Source of the DNA: an uncultured Anaeromyxobacter sp. | GTDB taxonomy: Bacteria > Myxococcota > Myxococcia > Myxococcales > Anaeromyxobacteraceae | Assembly: GCA_903904005.1 (NCBI GenBank) | Contig: CAIVAR010000011.1 | Location: forward strand, 1 to 64,000 | Reading direction: 5' to 3' | DNA: 64,000 nucleotides | Shown: piece after piece, positions 36,211 through 45,655 of the stretch | How positions within the stretch are numbered: the first letter of the stretch is position 1 | How the letters are laid out: each line of letters starts with the position of its first letter | Notes under the pieces: model-generated | The model's database searches: none | What the model was told of the DNA's origin: nothing | The model's input: only the letters and a program-made list of their open reading frames with translations | Position numbers and translations under genes: made by a program

Positions 36211-36981
36211 CTAATGCCCGTGCCCGTGATCGCCTGGCTCGCGCCCCTCGAGGCGCGCCAGCTCGAGCGGGTGCTCGTGCGCCATCCGCTCCCGGCTGAT
36301 GCTCCCCGTGAAGATGGAGGCGTCGAAGGGGAAGACGTCGGGGTGGAGGTGGGCGTTGAAGATGTGCCAGATGGTGATGACGAGGAACGCCATGAGCCCC
36401 TCGTTCGAGTGGGCCACCTTGGCCGCCGGGATGATCTCGCCAGGACCGAAGCGGGCCACCACCGCCGGGTACATGAGCGTGAGGCCGGAGAGGATCATGA
36501 TCACGTTGCCGATCATGAGGCTCCAGTACTCCCACTTCTGCTTGTAGTCGTAGCGATCGAAGGCGGCGGGGTGGTCCTCGAGCCCCAGGTAGTAGCGCAG
36601 CGTCGTCACCGCGTCGGTGAAGTCCCGCTTGTTCACCGCCATGCTGAAGCCGACCTTGCGCGACAGGATGGCCCGCATCGCGCCCACCGCGTGCCAGAGC
36701 ACGGCGACGATGAGCAGGATCCCGAAGAAGCGGTGGATCCAGCGGACGCCGTCGATCCCGCCCAGGTTTCCGATGAGCCACTGGGCCCACCGGGCGGTGT
36801 AGAACTTCTGCGGAAGGCCGGTCAGGACCAGGCCGACGAAGTCGACCATGGTCACGAAGTGCTCGACCCGCTGGGCCGGCGAGAAGCGGAGCAGGAACCC
36901 CGCCTCGGAATTCACCGCCTCGTCGCTCATCGTGCCGCTCCTCGCTCCGGTCCCGGAGGCGCCCGCCGTGTCGCCGCTCAT
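36211..36981 (-). CDS. Membrane cytochrome b (formate-dehydrogenase gamma/b561 type)
   Basis: 256 residues from ATG 36981 (ATGA overlap). Four TM segments at about 45-65, 80-105, 150-175 and 190-215. Candidate haem ligands are His in VEHF, WIHRFFGILLIVAVLWH, VAHSNEG and TIWHIFNAH. The tail is His-rich (DHGHGH). It is likely a di-haem quinone-reactive subunit that passes electrons to the nine-haem cytochrome encoded just upstream. Confidence 0.87.
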   Translation of the reverse strand: MSGDTAGASGTGARSGTMSDEAVNSEAGFLLRFSPAQRVEHFVTMVDFVGLVLTGLPQKFYTARWAQWLIGNLGGIDGVRWIHRFFGILLIVAVLWHAVGAMRAILSRKVGFSMAVNKRDFTDAVTTLRYYLGLEDHPAAFDRYDYKQKWEYWSLMIGNVIMILSGLTLMYPAVVARFGPGEIIPAAKVAHSNEGLMAFLVITIWHIFNAHLHPDVFPFDASIFTGSISRERMAHEHPLELARLEGREPGDHGHGH

Positions 36982-38021
36982 CGGTTCACCACCACCCGCC
37001 ACAGGTGCAGCGCGATCTGGATGACCAGGCTGAGCAGGATGAAGGGGATGAGCACGTAATAGAAGATCTGGACGCTCCAGACGAGCGGCGACTTCTTCAG
37101 GCTCGGCTCGTAATGGGACATCCAGGCCTTGGGGAAGTCGGCGGTGGCGCCGGCGTGGCACTTGCCGCAGGTCTTCACCAGATTTGCCTGCATCACCGAC
37201 GACTTGGGGTCGTCGGGGCGCTGGATGTCGTGCACGCCGTGGCAGTCGGTGCAGCCGGCCGCCAGCCGGTCGCCCTTCCCCTTCTTGCCCTTCTGCAGGG
37301 AGGCCGCCATGCCGTGGAAGTCGGCCAGGTAGCTCGCGACCACGTTGGTGGAGAGGCCGTACCGCTTCATCAGCTTCGGATCGGTGTGGCAGCGGCCGCA
37401 GATCTCGGCGGTGCGCAGCGACAGCGCCCCGGCGCGGGGATCGGCCACGTCGTGGGCCCGGTGGCAGTCGGTGCAGACCGGCACGTCGGGGTTTCCCTGG
37501 GTGACGGCCTTGCCGTGGACGCTGCTCTTGTAGACGTCGAAGACCTTCTTGTGGCAGTTCGAGCAGGTCTCGGAGACGCGGGTGCGTGGCTCGGCCGGGC
37601 GCCCGATGGCGTGGGAGCCGTGGCAATCGACGCAGAGCGCGGCCTGCCGGTTGCCCTTCTCGGCGACCTGGAAGTGCACGCCGTCGAGGGTCTTGGTGTA
37701 GTTCGAGAAGTGGCACTTCTTGCACTGCTCGTAGTAGGCGACGGTGACGTCCCGGCGGTTCTTGAAGGGCTTCGACTCGTGGGGGTAGTCGGCCTTGTCG
37801 GTGTGGCAATCCGTGCAGCGGAGGATGTCCCCGTGGACCGACTTCCCGAAGGCGGCCTGGTCGACGTGGAGCGGGAGCTTCTCGCCGCTCGGCAGGTCCA
37901 TGGTCATCGAGGGGTCGCTGCCGTGGCAGCCCAGGCAGCTGTCCTGCTCGGCCGGGATCTCGGCGCGCACGGGGGCGGCGAGGAGCACCACCGCGAGCAC
38001 CAGAATGAACCTCATCGGCAT
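36978..38021 (-). CDS. Nine-haem membrane-anchored cytochrome c
   Basis: 347 residues from ATG 38021 with AGGAG 5 bases upstream. Signal peptide (FILVLAVVLLAAPVRA), then nine CxxCH motifs (first CLGCH at 29-33, last CGKCH), many extra His for distal ligation, and a C-terminal TM helix (VQIFYYVLIPFILLSLVIQI). It should face the periplasm and exchange electrons with the coupled cytochrome b. Its gene lies 256 bases after the three-haem cytochrome and may have its own promoter. Confidence 0.92.
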   Translation of the reverse strand: MPMRFILVLAVVLLAAPVRAEIPAEQDSCLGCHGSDPSMTMDLPSGEKLPLHVDQAAFGKSVHGDILRCTDCHTDKADYPHESKPFKNRRDVTVAYYEQCKKCHFSNYTKTLDGVHFQVAEKGNRQAALCVDCHGSHAIGRPAEPRTRVSETCSNCHKKVFDVYKSSVHGKAVTQGNPDVPVCTDCHRAHDVADPRAGALSLRTAEICGRCHTDPKLMKRYGLSTNVVASYLADFHGMAASLQKGKKGKGDRLAAGCTDCHGVHDIQRPDDPKSSVMQANLVKTCGKCHAGATADFPKAWMSHYEPSLKKSPLVWSVQIFYYVLIPFILLSLVIQIALHLWRVVVNR

Positions 38022-38215
38022 GTGCACTCCTCGTGTCTGTCGGGGGACCCCGGAAGTTGACTGGCGGTCCTCGATCCGACCCCGTCGCGTGTAGCAGATC
38101 CACACAGGTCGCGCCAGCGGAACGATGAACGAGTGCCATGTATTTCCCCGGTAAATTCACATTTCTTCATCGACCTGTGCGGGTGAGTTGGGCCACCTCG
38201 CCCAGGACGCATGAT

Positions 38216-38277: not shown

Positions 38278-38622
38278 CTAGCGGTGGCACGTGTCGCAGG
38301 AGTCGAACCCGAAGGCGCCCTTGCCGTGACAGGCGCCGCACTGGCCACCCTTCTCCATCACCGCGTGGCGGATGGGGGCGCCGTTGGCCGTCGCGCCCTT
38401 CTCCAGCATCTGGAAGAGCTTCGGGTGGCAGGTGGTGCAGCCCGGCTTCTTCACGTCCACGTGGCTCTGGTGGCTGAAGGTCACCTTGCCCGGGCTTCCG
38501 TCCCCCGGCGGATAGGTGAAGTCGGGCGGGAGCTTGTCGAGCCCTCCGGCGAGCGCCGTGGTGGCGAGCGCGGCGGCGGCGACGACGGCGAGGCGGCGGA
38601 GGGTCTTTCCGATCGGATTCAT
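38278..38622 (-). CDS. Three-haem cytochrome c7-like protein
   Basis: 114 residues: signal peptide (VVAAAALATTALAGG), then CTTCH (62-66), CGACH (95-99) and CDTCH (109-113), with His51, His54 and His86 available as distal ligands. This fits the cytochrome c7 class of small periplasmic electron carriers. Its ATG overlaps the stop of the lipoyl-fold gene (ATGA). A likely shuttle between the quinol-facing subunits and periplasmic acceptors. Confidence 0.9.
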   Translation of the reverse strand: MNPIGKTLRRLAVVAAAALATTALAGGLDKLPPDFTYPPGDGSPGKVTFSHQSHVDVKKPGCTTCHPKLFQMLEKGATANGAPIRHAVMEKGGQCGACHGKGAFGFDSCDTCHR

Positions 38623-39317
38623 GGCGTCCCCTGGGTTTCCTTGGTGCGGAAGAACTCGCGGGCGACGTCGTCCCAGTGCTCCGGGTCGATCTCCCGCGCG
38701 ATGCCGTGGACCGGCGCGCCGCCGTCCTGGAGGACCGGTGCGGGCTCCGGGGAGAGGCGCGCCGCCAGCCTTCGCCCCTGGTCCTCGAGCCAGTCGCGCG
38801 CCGCCGCGCCGTCGAGCAGCTGGGCCCGGCTTCGCTTCCAGCCATCCGGCCGGACCCGGAAGAGCCAGCCGCTCCCGTACGGGTCGAGGTGGGCGTCCGG
38901 CGCGGCGTTGTAGGCGATCACCTCGCCGTCGACCGGGGAGACCACCTTCACGCTTCGTCCACCGGCGGAGAGCGTCACCGCGGGAGCGCCCTGCTCGACC
39001 CGGTCCCCGCGCCCCGGGACGTCGATCCGGTCGAGGTCGCCGACCAGTCGGTGGCCCAGGTCGTCGAGCCCGACCGAGACCGACCCGTCGTCCTCCAGGC
39101 GCGCCCAGCTGTGACCCGGATGCAGGGCCACGCCGTCGGGCACCGTGAACCAGCCGGTGTGCACCGGCTCGGCCCCGACCCGCGCGGCCGCGCCGGCGGT
39201 GGCCCGGCCCCCCTGGAGGTACCGCCAGAAGCCCACGAAGAGCAGCAGGTAGGCGACGGCGAGACCGTACTCGACCAGCTTCGCGGAGTAGCCGACCAGG
39301 AACTCGTTCCCGTGCAT
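38619..39317 (-). CDS. Membrane-anchored GcvH/lipoyl-fold protein lacking the lipoyl lysine
   Basis: 232 residues. TM helix about 16-35, then a domain like glycine cleavage H protein (GLDDLGHRLVGDLDRIDVPG, SPVDGEVIAYN, YGSGWLFRV). In gapless alignment with lipoyl domains the modified Lys falls on Gly120 (TLSAGGRSVKVVSP); the nearest Lys is 124 in the next strand. So lipoylation seems unlikely and a structural role is inferred. It is fixed between NrfD and the c7 cytochrome, with a 4-base overlap to the latter. Confidence 0.75.
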   Translation of the reverse strand: MHGNEFLVGYSAKLVEYGLAVAYLLLFVGFWRYLQGGRATAGAAARVGAEPVHTGWFTVPDGVALHPGHSWARLEDDGSVSVGLDDLGHRLVGDLDRIDVPGRGDRVEQGAPAVTLSAGGRSVKVVSPVDGEVIAYNAAPDAHLDPYGSGWLFRVRPDGWKRSRAQLLDGAAARDWLEDQGRRLAARLSPEPAPVLQDGGAPVHGIAREIDPEHWDDVAREFFRTKETQGTP

Positions 39318-39327
39318 GGCGCCCTCC

Positions 39328-40551
39328 TCAGTGCTCGCCGGCGTTGGACTTCATGGGGCGCAGCACCGGCATCCGGTTGACGATCCAGCGGAACGCCAGG
39401 ACGCCGATGACCACCAGGGCGAGCGAGACGGAGACCTCCATCCAGCTCGGCCAGTAGCGGACGGACTGGTGGTAGTTGTAGGCGACGAGCGAGACGTTGA
39501 GCCGGTTGAGGACGATTCCGCTCACGCCCAGGATGGCGGCCACCCGCACCACCGTCACGTGCCGGTTCCGGGCGCCCCAGGCGAACATGAGCGAGGGGAG
39601 GAGCACGAAGCCCAGCATCTCCACCAGGAACCACTTGCCGTAGAAGCCCATCCCGATGAGGCCGAGGGCGTGGTTGTCGATGACCCCCTGCAGCTTGAGG
39701 AAGAAGTAGGCGAACATCACCACCGCGCCGGCCTTGGCGAGCCCGAGCGTGAGCTTGTCGACGTCGACGTGGTGCCCCTCGAACTGCTCGGAGAAGAGCC
39801 GGTGCGAGAGCGTGCTCTCCACGATGACCATGCAGATGCCGGCGATGACCGCGCTGATGAAGAAGAACAGGAAGATCTGGCTGGAGTACCAGAGCGGGTG
39901 GAGCTTGCCCGGGGCGATGATGAAGAGGGAGCCCAGCGCCGACTGGTGCATGGTCGAGAACATCACCGAGAGCACGGTGAGGCCGAGCAGCGCCTTCTTG
40001 AGCGGGCGGTAGAAGCGCTCCCAGCCCAGCCACTCGAAGAACGGGACCGCGAACTCGAGCAGGAGGACGGTGGTGTAGCAGCAGACGCACCAGGCGACCT
40101 CGAAGAGGACCGACTGGGTGCCGTTGTTGGAGAAGATGCCGATCATGTTCCAGGGCTTGCCCAGGTCGGCGATGAGCCCGATGACCGCCATCATGTAGCC
40201 GAGGAAGCCGGTGAGGATCGCCGGGCGCTCGATGGAGTGGTACTCGTCGAGGCCGAAGATCTCCACGGTCGCGCCGATGGTGAACCCGCCCGCGGCCAGC
40301 GCGATGCCGGTCATCATGTCGAAGCCGATCCACAGCCCCCAGGGCTGGGTCTGCGACAGGTTGGTGGTGGCGCCCAGGCCGGCGACGAACCGGTAGACGA
40401 GAACCGGGATGCCGACGGCGAGGATGGCCGTGCAGACCACGTTGAAGGGCGTCCAGAGGGACCGGAGGTACTGCGGGAAGGTCATGCCGAGGAAGATGCG
40501 CTCCTGCACCCAGGAGCCCGGGCGGGCCGGTGCGGTGACGACGCTAGCCAT
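39328..40551 (-). CDS. NrfD/HybB-family quinol-reactive membrane subunit
   Basis: 407 residues from ATG 40551 (GGAGG 5 bases upstream). About ten TM helices; conserved polar stretches include QTQPWGLWIGFDM, STMHQSALGSLF and HPLWYSSQ. It is closest to HybB, the cofactor-free quinone-binding partner of a HybA-like Fe-S protein. Its start lies 8 bases inside the upstream Fe-S gene. With that protein it would link the quinone pool to the c-type haems of the cluster. Confidence 0.9.
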   Translation of the reverse strand: MASVVTAPARPGSWVQERIFLGMTFPQYLRSLWTPFNVVCTAILAVGIPVLVYRFVAGLGATTNLSQTQPWGLWIGFDMMTGIALAAGGFTIGATVEIFGLDEYHSIERPAILTGFLGYMMAVIGLIADLGKPWNMIGIFSNNGTQSVLFEVAWCVCCYTTVLLLEFAVPFFEWLGWERFYRPLKKALLGLTVLSVMFSTMHQSALGSLFIIAPGKLHPLWYSSQIFLFFFISAVIAGICMVIVESTLSHRLFSEQFEGHHVDVDKLTLGLAKAGAVVMFAYFFLKLQGVIDNHALGLIGMGFYGKWFLVEMLGFVLLPSLMFAWGARNRHVTVVRVAAILGVSGIVLNRLNVSLVAYNYHQSVRYWPSWMEVSVSLALVVIGVLAFRWIVNRMPVLRPMKSNAGEH

Positions 40552-41461
40552 GGTTGCCTCCGTCGGCCTTGCCGGCCCCGTGATCCGTTCCGTGCGGCTT
40601 GTTCTTTCCATCGCGGTGCGAGAAGGCCCAGAGCCCCATCAGGAGCGGCGGCCAGAGCGTCATGACCACCGGCGGCACGCCCAGCGCCCCCCGGACCAGC
40701 TTCGGGTAGGAGTTGTCGTTGACCGCGACCTCGAAGCCCAGCTTCTCGAAGGAGAGGTCGCTCACGTACATCCAGTTGGTCCCGCCGGCCTCGTGCTCGC
40801 CGTAGATGTGGGGCAGGTACTTGTCGGGGTTGCCGTAGACGCGGCGCCGCGCCTCCTCGACGAGCTGGCCGCGCGTCCCGTAGGCGAGCGCGCCGCTCGG
40901 GCAGACGCCCACGCAGGCGGGCTGCTTCCCCTCGGCCTGGCGACCCGAACAGAAGGTGCACTTGCGGACCACCGGGATGGCCTTCGAGTACTCGTACTTG
41001 GGGACCGAGAACGGGCAGGCCACCATGCAGTACCGGCAGCCCATGCACTTCGAGCCGTCGTAGGCCACCGGTCCGGTGGCCAGCTTGTCGAGCGCCCGCA
41101 CCGGGCAGGCCGACGCGCAGGCCGGCTCCACGCAGTGCATGCACTGGCGCTTGACGTACCGGGTGCTGCCGTCCGCCTTCGGGGTCGGGTTCACCACCGT
41201 GAAGCACTCCGGCCCGGTGGTCCGGGTCGCCGCGTAGGCCTTGTCGTCGCCGGGCGGGTCGGGGAGCTTGTTGGCCTCGGCGCAGGCGGCCTCGCAGCCG
41301 CGGCAGCCGATGCACTTCGTGGTGTCGACGAGGACGGAGCTCTCGTCCGCGCCCACGGCGTGGACGTCGCTGGCCGCCCGGGAACGTCCCGGGAGCGCGA
41401 CGAGCGCCGCGGTTCCGGTGGCGCCGGCGATCTGGAGGAAGGTTCTTCTGCCGAGCTTCAT
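40544..41461 (-). CDS. HybA-like four-cluster Fe-S protein, Tat-exported
   Basis: 305 residues. Tat signal RRTFLQIAGATG at 5-16; four Cys sets (CIGCRGCEAAC; CMHC with CASACP; CMGCRYCMVACPF; CTFC with CVGVCP) for four 4Fe-4S clusters; and a C-terminal TM helix (VVMTLWPPLLMGLWAF) followed by a His/Gly/Lys tail. This is the HybA arrangement: a periplasmic electron wire anchored to the membrane beside NrfD/HybB. No catalytic molybdenum or nickel subunit is encoded nearby. Confidence 0.93.
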   Translation of the reverse strand: MKLGRRTFLQIAGATGTAALVALPGRSRAASDVHAVGADESSVLVDTTKCIGCRGCEAACAEANKLPDPPGDDKAYAATRTTGPECFTVVNPTPKADGSTRYVKRQCMHCVEPACASACPVRALDKLATGPVAYDGSKCMGCRYCMVACPFSVPKYEYSKAIPVVRKCTFCSGRQAEGKQPACVGVCPSGALAYGTRGQLVEEARRRVYGNPDKYLPHIYGEHEAGGTNWMYVSDLSFEKLGFEVAVNDNSYPKLVRGALGVPPVVMTLWPPLLMGLWAFSHRDGKNKPHGTDHGAGKADGGNHG

Positions 41462-41486: not shown

Positions 41487-41555
41487 TCAGGGGATGCGGT
41501 TCAGGAATCCAATCACGACGAGTCCGACGACGGCGAGGGCAGTGACGGCGATCAC
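41487..41555 (-). CDS. 22-aa single-helix membrane peptide
   Basis: GTG 41555 to TGA 41487: MIAVTALAVVGLVVIGFLNR plus IP. The GTG overlaps the stop of the Cys protein as GTGA, and AAGGGGG lies 7 bases before it. It is nearly all membrane helix with a basic end, like the tiny subunits CydX, KdpF or CcoQ. Position directly before the Fe-S/NrfD pair suggests a small subunit of the same complex. Too short for homology judgement; chance is possible. Confidence 0.5.
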   Translation of the reverse strand: MIAVTALAVVGLVVIGFLNRIP

Positions 41556-41776
41556 GACTGCACCCCCTTCTTCCCGTGGACTTCCTTGAGCTCGGTCTCG
41601 AGCTCCTCGATGGTGTGGAGGGCCCTGGAAAGGGCTTCCCGGTAGAGGGCGCAGCCGTTGAACCCGTCCCCCTCGCAGGCAGAGGCGGTGCTGATCCGAT
41701 CGGTCGGGATGAGCTTCTTCTGCGGGGAGGCCCCGCAGAACACCATGGTCACTTCGGTGAGGTAGGGACAGGTCAT
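41552..41776 (-). CDS. Small Cys-containing protein, first gene of the respiratory cluster
   Basis: 74 residues from ATG 41776 (GGAGG 11 bases upstream). A GTG at 41794 is the alternative, but the predicted sigma-54 transcript starts near 41795, leaving it no leader. Four Cys: MTCPYLTE, VFCGAS, ASACEG and GFNGCALYRE; a charged helix ends it. The spacing could hold a Zn or Fe-S centre. It is cytoplasmic as no signal is seen. No named family is recognised. It is coupled to the 22-aa peptide. Confidence 0.65.
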   Translation of the reverse strand: MTCPYLTEVTMVFCGASPQKKLIPTDRISTASACEGDGFNGCALYREALSRALHTIEELETELKEVHGKKGVQS

Positions 41777-41805
41777 GACGTTCGCGTCCTCCACCTGTCC
41801 CCTGT

Positions 41806-41821
41806 TTCAAGGGGTGAGCCA
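41806..41821 (-). promoter_or_regulatory. Sigma-54-type promoter for the respiratory cluster
   Basis: On the minus strand TGGCTC (41821-41816), ACCCC, TTGAA (41810-41806). It matches TGGCAC-N5-TTGCW at 9 of 11 defined positions; the C of the invariant -12 GC is A here. The start point would be near 41795. Confidence 0.55.
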
Positions 41822-41961
41822 GAGTGGGCTCCCCTCGACTCCAGGTGAAATCCAACCTGTTCACGGAAGGTTGCATCGGCACCCCCGGACGGGGCGCGGA
41901 AGCGACCGGGGGCCCGGCGATGAGTTCCTCAACGGTGCCGGGGGGCGTGGAACCACGCAAC

Positions 41962-41979
41962 GTCGCGAGATCCCGCGAC
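41962..41979. promoter_or_regulatory. 18-bp dyad, candidate enhancer site for the NtrC-type regulator
   Basis: GTCGCGAGATCCCGCGAC is a palindrome except at two mirrored positions. It lies about 140 bases upstream of the sigma-54-type promoter and 74 bases past the regulator's stop. The half site GTCGCGAG recurs at 45718-45725, upstream of the kinase gene of the same system. Confidence 0.5.
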
Positions 41980-42052
41980 ATTGGGGGTTCCGTCCCGGGG
42001 CGTCGAGAAAGTCACCGGTCGTAAAGATTCCCGCCACCCGTCCGGGACGGGG

Positions 42053-43434
<1,382 letters not shown>

Positions 43435-43438
<4 letters not shown>

Positions 43439-43968
43439 CTCGCCTCTCCCCCGCGCCGCATCACGCGGTCGCGGCACTTCGAGCAGAATTCCCCGCGCTT
43501 CCGATCCACGTCCCGTGCGTTGGGCGATCTCCCCATGACGCACGCCGGGCTGTCGCAATGGACGAGCCCGAAGCAGTGTCCCAGTTCGTGGACGCTCTCC
43601 TTGGCCAGCCGCTCCAGCGCCACCCGTGGGTCGGGAAGCCCGGGCTCCCCCAGACGGGCGGTGGAGACCACCGCGGAGCGCCCGTCGAGCTGGGCCTCGC
43701 CGAAGACGAAGGTGAGGATGGGGATGAAGAGATCCTGGTCGGTCACGGCGAGGACCTTCCCCGGCGGCCCCGTCGTTCCCAGCCAGGCCAGGATCCGCGA
43801 GGTGGCCCACTGCTTGCGCCGGGGGTCGTAGGCGTCGGGCGGCCGGGCCGGATCGTTCCAGATGCCGACGGAGGTCTGGAGCGCCCGCCCCAGGTGGAGC
43901 CGCACGTGATCGAGGGTCCGGGGACCTGGATCCTTCTCGCCGATCCACCACAGGTGTATCGCCTCCAC
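43435..43968 (-). CDS. amzA: Archaemetzincin-type zinc peptidase
   Basis: 177 residues from GTG 43968. The full signature is present: HELGHCFGLVHC (127-138), C143-x-M145 and CSKC (162-165), i.e. HExxHxxGxxHCx4CxM...CxxC, which binds a catalytic and a structural zinc. There is no signal peptide, so it is cytoplasmic. Archaemetzincins are aminopeptidase-like enzymes with poorly known roles. It starts one base after the kinase stop and its stop overlaps the regulator start, so it belongs to this two-component operon. Confidence 0.88.
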
Positions 43969-43969
43969 G

Positions 43970-45655
43970 TCACGACCCGCGCGCCGCGGGGAGCCGGATG
44001 GTGAAGCGGGTCCCCTTCCCCGGATCGCTGTCCACGCTCACGTGCCCCTTGTGCCGATCGACGATCCCGTAGACCACCGAGAGCCCGAGGCCGGTGCCCT
44101 TCTCCTTGGTGGTGAAGAACGGGTCGAAGATCTTCACCATGAGCTCGGGCGGGATCCCCGGCCCGTCGTCCTGGAAGACGATCTCGACGGCGCCCTCGCC
44201 GGGCAGCGGGCGGGTGGTCACCTGGAGGATCCCCCCCTTGCCCATGGCCTCGATGGCGTTGATGACGATGTTGATGAAGGCCTGGCGGAGCTGACCGAAG
44301 TCGGCCTGGACCGGGGGAACGGGGGCGAGGTCCTTGCGGATCTCCACGCCCAGGATGGCGACCTGGTTCGTGACCAGCGAGAAGACCTCGTCGACGACGT
44401 GGTTCACGTCGACGTCCTTGAGTTGCATCGGCCGTTCCCGGGCGAAGTCGAGGAGGTTCCGCACGATGGCTGTGCAGCGCTCCGTCTCGCGCTGGACGAG
44501 CGCCAGCTGCTTCACCAGCGTCCGGCGCTCTGCCTCCCCGACCGGGCCGTGCTCGATGGTCCGGATCATGAGCTTCGCGAAGGTGAGGATGCCGGCCAGC
44601 GGGTTGTTGATCTCGTGCGCGATGGAGGCCGAGAGCTTTCCCAGCGAGGAGAGCTTCTCGGTCCGGACGAGCGTGTCCTGGGCGGCCCGCAGCTCGCCGG
44701 TGCGCTCCTCGACCTTCAGCTCGAGCTGCTCGTTGAGGGCCTGGAGCTCCCCCTCCACGCGGCGCAGCGAGCGGATCATGTCGTTGAAGGAGGCGGCGAG
44801 CAGGCCCAGCTCGCCCCGGGAGTCGACGTGGAGCTCGGTGTCGAGCTCGTCGTGCGCCACCCGGCGGGTGGCCTGGACGAGCGCCTCCACGGGGCGGACC
44901 ACCCGGTTCTTGGCCACCCACCAGAAGATCCCGCAGAGCAGCAGGGCGAGGAGCGCCGTGACGAGGAGGCTGACGCGCCGGAAGGCCGACAGGTCCCGGT
45001 CGAGGGGGGCGAGCGAGACGCCCAGGTCGAGGACCCCGACCACCGCCTTCTCCCGCGGGTGCGCGTGGCAGGCGCTCGTGGTGCAGTCCGGGCTGGACCG
45101 GATGGGCGTGACCATGGAGAGGACCCGCCCCTGGCGCCCGTCGTAGACCCGGGCCCGCAGCGCGTCGATGGGGACGGTGAGGCTCTCGTTGTCGCCGTGG
45201 CAGGAGTTGCACCCCTCGGCCCGCTTGTCGACGAGCTGGCCGCGCTCGCCGGGCACCGTCGAGAAGGTGATGCGCCCTTCCTTGTTGAAGATCCGGACGT
45301 GGGCGATCTGCGCCTGGCGGCCGACGTTGTCGATGATGGCGTAGGCGTCGCCCCGCTCGTCCTTCAACATGGCGTGGCGGATCGAGGCCGAGACGGTCTC
45401 GCTCACCAGGGACGTGGCCGCGGTCGCGCTGGCGAGCCGCTGGCGGGCGATGGTCATCTCCACCACGGCGAAGGCCACCACCGCGGCGAGGACGAGCGCC
45501 GCCGCGACGCCGAGCAGCTGGGTGGAGATGCGGTCGCGCCAGGGGATGGAATCGAGCGCGGCGTGGTCGTGCCGGGGGCGTGTGGGCGTGCCCGGGGGCA
45601 CCGCCTCCGGACCGTTGCCGCCCTCTTCTGTCCCGCTCGACGACCCTTCCCGCAC
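43970..45655 (-). CDS. Sensor histidine kinase with two haem-type motifs
   Basis: 561 residues from GTG. TM1 about 44-66; periplasmic sensor 70-225 with CNSCH (149-153) and the spaced motif CTTSACH (191-197, CX4CH); TM2 about 228-250; HAMP; HisKA with ASIAHEINNPLAGIL; ATPase with NIVINAIEAMG, DDGPGIP and GTGLGLSVVYGIV. CX4CH haem sites are known in tetrahaem cytochromes c3, so this sensor may carry two haems. It heads the operon with amzA and the NtrC-type regulator. Confidence 0.9.
   Translation of the reverse strand: MREGSSSGTEEGGNGPEAVPPGTPTRPRHDHAALDSIPWRDRISTQLLGVAAALVLAAVVAFAVVEMTIARQRLASATAATSLVSETVSASIRHAMLKDERGDAYAIIDNVGRQAQIAHVRIFNKEGRITFSTVPGERGQLVDKRAEGCNSCHGDNESLTVPIDALRARVYDGRQGRVLSMVTPIRSSPDCTTSACHAHPREKAVVGVLDLGVSLAPLDRDLSAFRRVSLLVTALLALLLCGIFWWVAKNRVVRPVEALVQATRRVAHDELDTELHVDSRGELGLLAASFNDMIRSLRRVEGELQALNEQLELKVEERTGELRAAQDTLVRTEKLSSLGKLSASIAHEINNPLAGILTFAKLMIRTIEHGPVGEAERRTLVKQLALVQRETERCTAIVRNLLDFARERPMQLKDVDVNHVVDEVFSLVTNQVAILGVEIRKDLAPVPPVQADFGQLRQAFINIVINAIEAMGKGGILQVTTRPLPGEGAVEIVFQDDGPGIPPELMVKIFDPFFTTKEKGTGLGLSVVYGIVDRHKGHVSVDSDPGKGTRFTIRLPAARGS

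Follow-up and report, generated by a model that had tools for sequence, protein, structure and literature searches.

Conserved dyads and a predicted sigma-54 promoter between a putative dihaem kinase unit and a quinol:cytochrome c operon in Anaeromyxobacter and related loci of other phyla

Gene content of the locus

The analysed window is a stretch of 64,000 nucleotides from a 4.56 Mb genome assembly of an uncultured Anaeromyxobacter sp. On its minus strand, genes for a histidine kinase, an archaemetzincin-like protease and an NtrC-type regulator are followed by a 276-bp intergenic region and a set of respiratory genes. The latter encode, in order, a 74-aa Cys-rich protein, a 22-aa hydrophobic ORF, HmcB-like and HmcC-like subunits, a GcvH-like subunit, a trihaem cytochrome c7, and a multihaem cytochrome (Table 1).

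Table 1. Features of the locus and their positions in the window
Feature	Position	Strand	Basis or remark
Multihaem cytochrome c	36978..38105	-	
Trihaem cytochrome c7	38278..38622	-	
GcvH-like subunit	38619..39317	-	
HmcC/NrfD-like membrane quinol oxidoreductase subunit	39328..40611	-	
HmcB-like iron-sulphur subunit	40544..41461	-	
22-aa hydrophobic ORF	41487..41555	-	comparable small ORFs precede HmcB in many relatives
74-aa Cys-rich protein, first gene of the operon	41552..41776	-	translation, comparison with relatives
Predicted sigma-54 promoter TGGCTC-N5-TTGAA, TGGCTCACCCCTTGAA	41806..41821	-	sequence and conservation
Conserved element GCAACCTTCCGTGAACA, between operators and promoter	41858..41874	-	alignment of relatives
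Proximal candidate operator dyad CGTTGAGGAACTCATCG	41918..41934	-	matrix rank 1; conserved in congeners
Initially annotated palindrome GTCGCGAGATCCCGCGAC, judged not to be an operator	41962..41979	.	not conserved
Inner dyad of distal tandem pair CGGTGACTTTCTCGACG	42001..42017	-	matrix rank 2; conserved
Outer dyad of tandem pair	42020..42036	-	decayed here (3.9 bits), intact in three congeners
NtrC-type response regulator: receiver, AAA+ with GAFTGA, Fis-type HTH	42053..43441	-	
Archaemetzincin-like zinc protease (M54)	43435..43968	-	PF07998, 77.4 bits (cut-off 24.4)
Membrane histidine kinase, Cache-like sensor	43970..45655	-	profile and structure match
Kinase haem motif Cx4CH (CTTSACH)	about 45065-45085	-	
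Kinase haem motif CxxCH	about 45197-45211	-	

The comparison covered 20 homologous loci, of which 19 belong to the same family and the last to a different family within the same order. Kinase and regulator genes were located upstream of the operon in 18 of them (exceptions, L044 and L055), and these 18 loci together with the window provided 19 intergenic regions for the analysis of promoters and operators. The genus of the window is represented by four species, namely the window and three congeners (L038-L040), whose regulators are 93-95% identical to that of the window.

The 74-aa protein had no Pfam match; it is the first gene in most relatives and was lost in L045, L046, and L049. The GcvH-like gene was not found at the corresponding place in the three congeners. 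Many relatives carry two copies of GcvH-like genes.

The CxxCH motif initially annotated in the adjacent kinase is present, and a second motif, CTTSACH, was also found. Both haem c motifs, CxxCH and Cx4CH, occur in all 19 family kinases and in 35 of the 36 regulator-adjacent kinases of other groups, the remaining one (L277) having two CxxCH motifs. A profile of 48 sensors matched GSU0935 (3b42, E 4.2e-5) and GSU0582 (3b47, E 8.1e-5), whose haem motif aligns with Cx4CH, so that the additional motif is the CxxCH lying about 42 residues ahead. In the Foldseek search, the AlphaFold2 model of the sensor (mean pLDDT 84.1) matched Cache-type sensors, with 3b42 at rank 5. Both sequence and fold match the c-haem Cache group (GSU0582/GSU0935). 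In Pfam, the sensor reached 19.2 bits with PF21563, below the cut-off of 27, and PF11845 was not among the matches. The kinase is a putative dihaem c sensor, the covalent attachment of its haems being suggested by the motifs.

The archaemetzincin ORF between kinase and regulator genes, missed in the initial annotation, matches PF07998 and contains the zinc motif HExxHxxGxxH in the form HELGHCFGLVH. This gene is missing in one family locus, L054. It accompanied the regulator in all 36 regulator-bearing loci of other groups, in 35 of them within 700 bp. Archaemetzincins are not known to have an established role in bacteria, and no paper connecting them with a two-component system was found in the open literature searched.

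The regulator is of the NtrC type with an intact GAFTGA, as initially annotated, and all three domains were identified. Across 48 aligned regulators there is almost no variation in the recognition helix (DRVTLYNK in the window), which fits the use of one operator across phyla. The regulators of L230, L232, and L234, outside this alignment, have GAFTDA instead of GAFTGA.

Promoter and operator sites in the window and the family

The sequence TGGCTC-N5-TTGAA proposed as a sigma-54-type promoter of the first gene does occur on the minus strand, reading from 41821 to 41806, with 29 bases to the ATG at 41776 and a predicted transcription start near 41795. The match by itself is weak evidence, since TGGCNCNNNNNTTGCW with up to one mismatch has 13 matches in the window against 5.05 +/- 2.41 expected. 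It is conservation rather than match quality that carries the prediction. The TGG at -24 is invariant in all 19 regions, and the G at -12 is kept in 18 (exception, L051); the window has GG at -24 and G at -12 at the standard spacing. The weak point noted initially, an A instead of C following the -12 G, is present, yet it is shared by all four species of the genus and is therefore a fixed feature of it. The window and its three congeners thus lack the C typical of sigma-54 sites; this base is C in 12 of the 19 regions and G in L041, L056, and L054. Accordingly, the -12 element is TTGAA in all four species of the genus, and elsewhere mostly TTGC or GTGC. An rpoN gene was found in the genome. 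Judged by its conservation, the predicted sigma-54 promoter before the respiratory cluster is well supported.

An unbiased search for spaced palindromes in 19 upstream regions placed GTTGAG-N3-CTCAAC first; with up to two mismatches it was present in 18 of them, compared to 14 in the best of five shuffled sets. A dyad matrix was built by expectation maximization, leaving out one genus each time, with 500 shuffles per region, and sites were recovered in every held-out genus with a best-site p of at most 0.004. With the matrix trained without the genus of the window, the two highest scores in the whole window were 20.3 bits at 41918-41934 and 16.7 bits at 42001-42017. The candidate operator has the consensus YGTYGAG-N-W-N-CTCRACR and usually occurs three times, with the outer dyad 191-239 bp, the inner 171-220 bp, and the proximal 89-126 bp from the -24 element; the distances in the window are 214 (decayed copy), 195, and 112 bp, respectively. 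This layout was not followed by L051 and L052, with two dyads only, and L053, where the dyads are weak.

The conserved dyads flank, on either side, the 18-bp near-palindrome initially proposed as the binding site. This palindrome exists, with 8 of 9 pairs matching, and its intergenic location at a usual enhancer distance would suit an operator peculiar to the species of the window. However, in an alignment of the intergenic regions of the four species it is absent from the three congeners despite their nearly identical regulators, and 18-mers as palindromic as GTCGCGAGATCCCGCGAC occur 42 times in the window (14-29 times in five shuffles). The same matrix gives it 5.2 bits. The half site GTCGCGAG, initially noted as recurring before the kinase gene, has 7 occurrences in the window against 12.1 expected, which corresponds to chance; near the start of the kinase gene in the three congeners it was found on neither strand. 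The palindrome and half site were rejected as the operator, and such a species-specific role is extremely improbable.

Between operators and promoter, 52-55 bp upstream of -24, lies another conserved element, GYAACNCNNCGTGAACA, with 0-1 mismatches in all eight loci of one genus and in L052, and 2-4 mismatches within the genus of the window. An IHF site between enhancer and promoter was considered and rejected, since the element does not fit the IHF consensus.

Of 20 loci examined, 10 (L041, L042, L043, L047, L048, L050, L052, L053, L056, and L154) have a single dyad of at least 14.6 bits before the kinase gene, and none was found at this place in the window or its three congeners. Judging from this dyad, the signalling unit probably also regulates itself in the relatives that have it.

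A tandem-dyad model, R1, was scanned over 24 family genomes and ranked the cluster site first in 16 of them, namely 15 of the 16 training genomes and the untrained G023. Among 19 further R1 places, two were sensible, the own cluster of G023 (L114) and the second HmcBC copy of Anaeromyxobacter oryzae (L129). A larger regulon was not accepted: the other places, of which L118 is an unclear case, overlapped called reading frames and were taken as chance. A search of five genomes with the single-dyad pattern was swamped by matches in coding regions and was dropped. At L129 the tandem dyads lie close before HmcB; no good sigma-54 site was found between them and HmcB, and neither kinase nor regulator genes were found within the stretch.

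Occurrence of the dyads beyond the family

Scanning of species genomes with an HmcC alignment revealed 23 loci, of which eight (L143, L144, L148, and L150-L154) were taken as lying outside the group. Dyads were found at 207, 185, and 105 bp from the best -24/-12 candidate in L148 (Acidobacteria), at 216, 196, and 104 bp in L154 (Vicinamibacterales), and at 214, 191, and 116 bp in L150 (Ignavibacteria, GC content 44%), where the promoter candidate is weak. L143 and L144 contained weaker dyads in matching places, and no dyads were found upstream of the operon in L151-L153.

HmcC relatives at E <= 1e-70 were present in 107 of 294 genomes searched in the class of L150 and in 106 of 396 in the phylum of L148. 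From these searches 60 loci were taken, mostly best matches. The regulator, with at least 44% identity, was found in 36 of them, in 24 cases downstream of the operon, and in 21 of these the upstream region was of sufficient length (L226, L228, and L235 were left out). An unbiased search of the 21 regions, which were not used in motif discovery except for L279, the L150 genome again, placed GTTGAA-N3-TTCAAC first, in 17 of 21 regions, compared to 11 in the best of three shuffled sets. A search of one class with the sensor gave a single match in 143 genomes at E <= 1e-30.

A strict three-dyad template, defined after L150 had been seen, matched 15 of the 36 regulator-bearing loci against 0.05 expected, and 4 of the other 24 loci. 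Two of the 15 matches (L223 and L255) are away from the operon start, leaving 13 at the expected place. In the family, the template was found at the promoter in 15 of 21 loci; the only match in the window falls elsewhere and was taken as chance.

These data bear on the possibility that the dyads serve another regulator, for example an FNR/CRP-like one, while the NtrC-type protein works elsewhere. AT-rich copies of the dyad, TTGAA-N3-TTCAA, resemble the FNR box, and the four template-bearing loci outside the regulator-bearing set (L224, L231, L237, and L250), with the same kind of operon, have no regulator visible close by on the contig. The contigs of L224 and L237 break off shortly behind HmcC, whereas those of L231 and L250 showed no regulator nearby. 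Against this reading, a position about 90-240 bp upstream of -24 is far for a class I/II activator, and the dyads accompany the NtrC-type regulator across differing gene orders and recur before the kinase gene. Moreover, no dyad triple was found in nine loci (L266-L274) that encode HmcB, a related kinase, GcvH, and a same-place protein with only a partial match to the regulator (33-37%); in the two inspected, L266 and L274, the match was confined to the receiver part, with no sigma-54 domain. Assignment of the dyads to another regulator is thus unlikely, and we prefer the NtrC-type regulator as the protein recognizing them.

Proposed circuit and comparison with known systems

The dihaem c kinase, archaemetzincin-like protease and NtrC-type regulator would form a dedicated unit controlling the quinol:cytochrome c operon next to it. 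In the kinase, the Cache-like periplasmic domain, predicted to carry two covalent haems, may respond to a ligand of the haems or to the redox state of the respiratory chain. The phosphorylated regulator would bind the distal tandem pair and the proximal dyad, as the conservation of these sites suggests, and activate the sigma-54 polymerase at TGGCTC-N5-TTGAA, consistent with GAFTGA and the conserved promoter. We consider this circuit as a whole quite likely. Activation of the cluster by a haem two-component system via sigma-54, as proposed in the initial annotation, is well supported by synteny, promoter and operator; its choice of the palindrome as operator did not hold. Some observations speak against our explanation: the window has a decayed outer dyad, the template matches only 15 of 36 regulator-bearing loci and also 4 of 24 others, the layout deviates in L051-L053, and L054 lacks M54.

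We infer that the sensor answers the redox state or haem chemistry. In the same circuit, the kinase could instead be a nitric oxide sensor. Haem Cache domains fused to signalling modules are reported in PMC12889525 to behave as NO sensors, and the present sensor matches the fold group of those domains; it has two haem motifs rather than one, and no NO enzyme was recognized within the operon, although neither point is decisive. NO sensing appears less probable than a redox response but deserves consideration. The most likely picture, drawn by analogy, is that a redox-responsive kinase would switch on a quinol:cytochrome c branch, as BccR reportedly does for cbcBA in Geobacter.

Both dihaem sensors and the control of respiratory genes by NtrC-type proteins are of an already known kind. 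The dyad operator, the cross-phylum layout and the archaemetzincin link were not found in the open literature searched. It is conceivable, and proposed here tentatively, that the dihaem c kinase, archaemetzincin and NtrC-type regulator, the last with a conserved enhancer code of its own, constitute a previously undescribed unit in at least three phyla (Anaeromyxobacter, Acidobacteria, and Ignavibacteria, as labelled in sequence records). The protease would then take part in signalling, for instance by trimming the kinase or regulator or by resetting one of them, and the unit would choose the quinol-to-cytochrome branch as the acceptor potential changes. The way in which bacteria possessing several quinol-oxidising branches sense potential and select among these branches becomes experimentally tractable, since a two-haem-motif sensor recurs in distant phyla together with a regulator, an operator and a promoter. 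The constant company of archaemetzincin offers a functional context for that protease family.

Among known systems, BccR (GSU0598) is reportedly needed for the low-potential quinol oxidoreductase CbcBA in Geobacter sulfurreducens. CbcBA is described as acting at low potential (PMC10553843, PMC12307469), and GSU0599 as a two-component protein that carries two motifs for haem c (PMC8396549). As described, GSU0599/BccR at cbcBA resembles the present unit in combining a two-haem-motif two-component protein with a regulator of a quinol oxidoreductase, but CbcBA is a bc-type cytochrome, whereas the operon here encodes an NrfD/HmcC-like complex with a GcvH-like subunit.

The class of dihaem sensors is already known, since sensors with an additional haem motif are reported in Anaeromyxobacter and Geobacter (GSU0591, GSU0599) (PMC3831638, PMC8396549). 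In A. dehalogenans 2CP-C, Adeh_2011 and Adeh_3383 are described as PAS/Cache-like sensors homologous to GSU0935/GSU0582 and carrying an additional haem motif (PMC3831638). Like the present kinase they would be dihaem Cache-like sensors; the description in PMC3831638 gives no target genes or operator. Sensors of the sCache_heme and DUF3365-Tll0287 types share the Cache fold with a covalent haem motif, but the kinase here has two motifs, one widened to Cx4CH, and is unmatched by PF11845.

The regulator resembles sigma-54 activators of the NtrC/AtoC type in its receiver, AAA+ domain with GAFTGA, Fis-type HTH and upstream dyads, but differs in its operator, YGTYGAG-N3-CTCRACR, and scores under every listed equivalog cut-off. 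The HmcB- and HmcC-like subunits (330.3 and 440.6 bits) are related to the Hmc complex of sulphate reducers but lie below the NCBIfam equivalog cut-offs of 420 and 550, and the cluster here adds GcvH-like, c7 and multihaem proteins.
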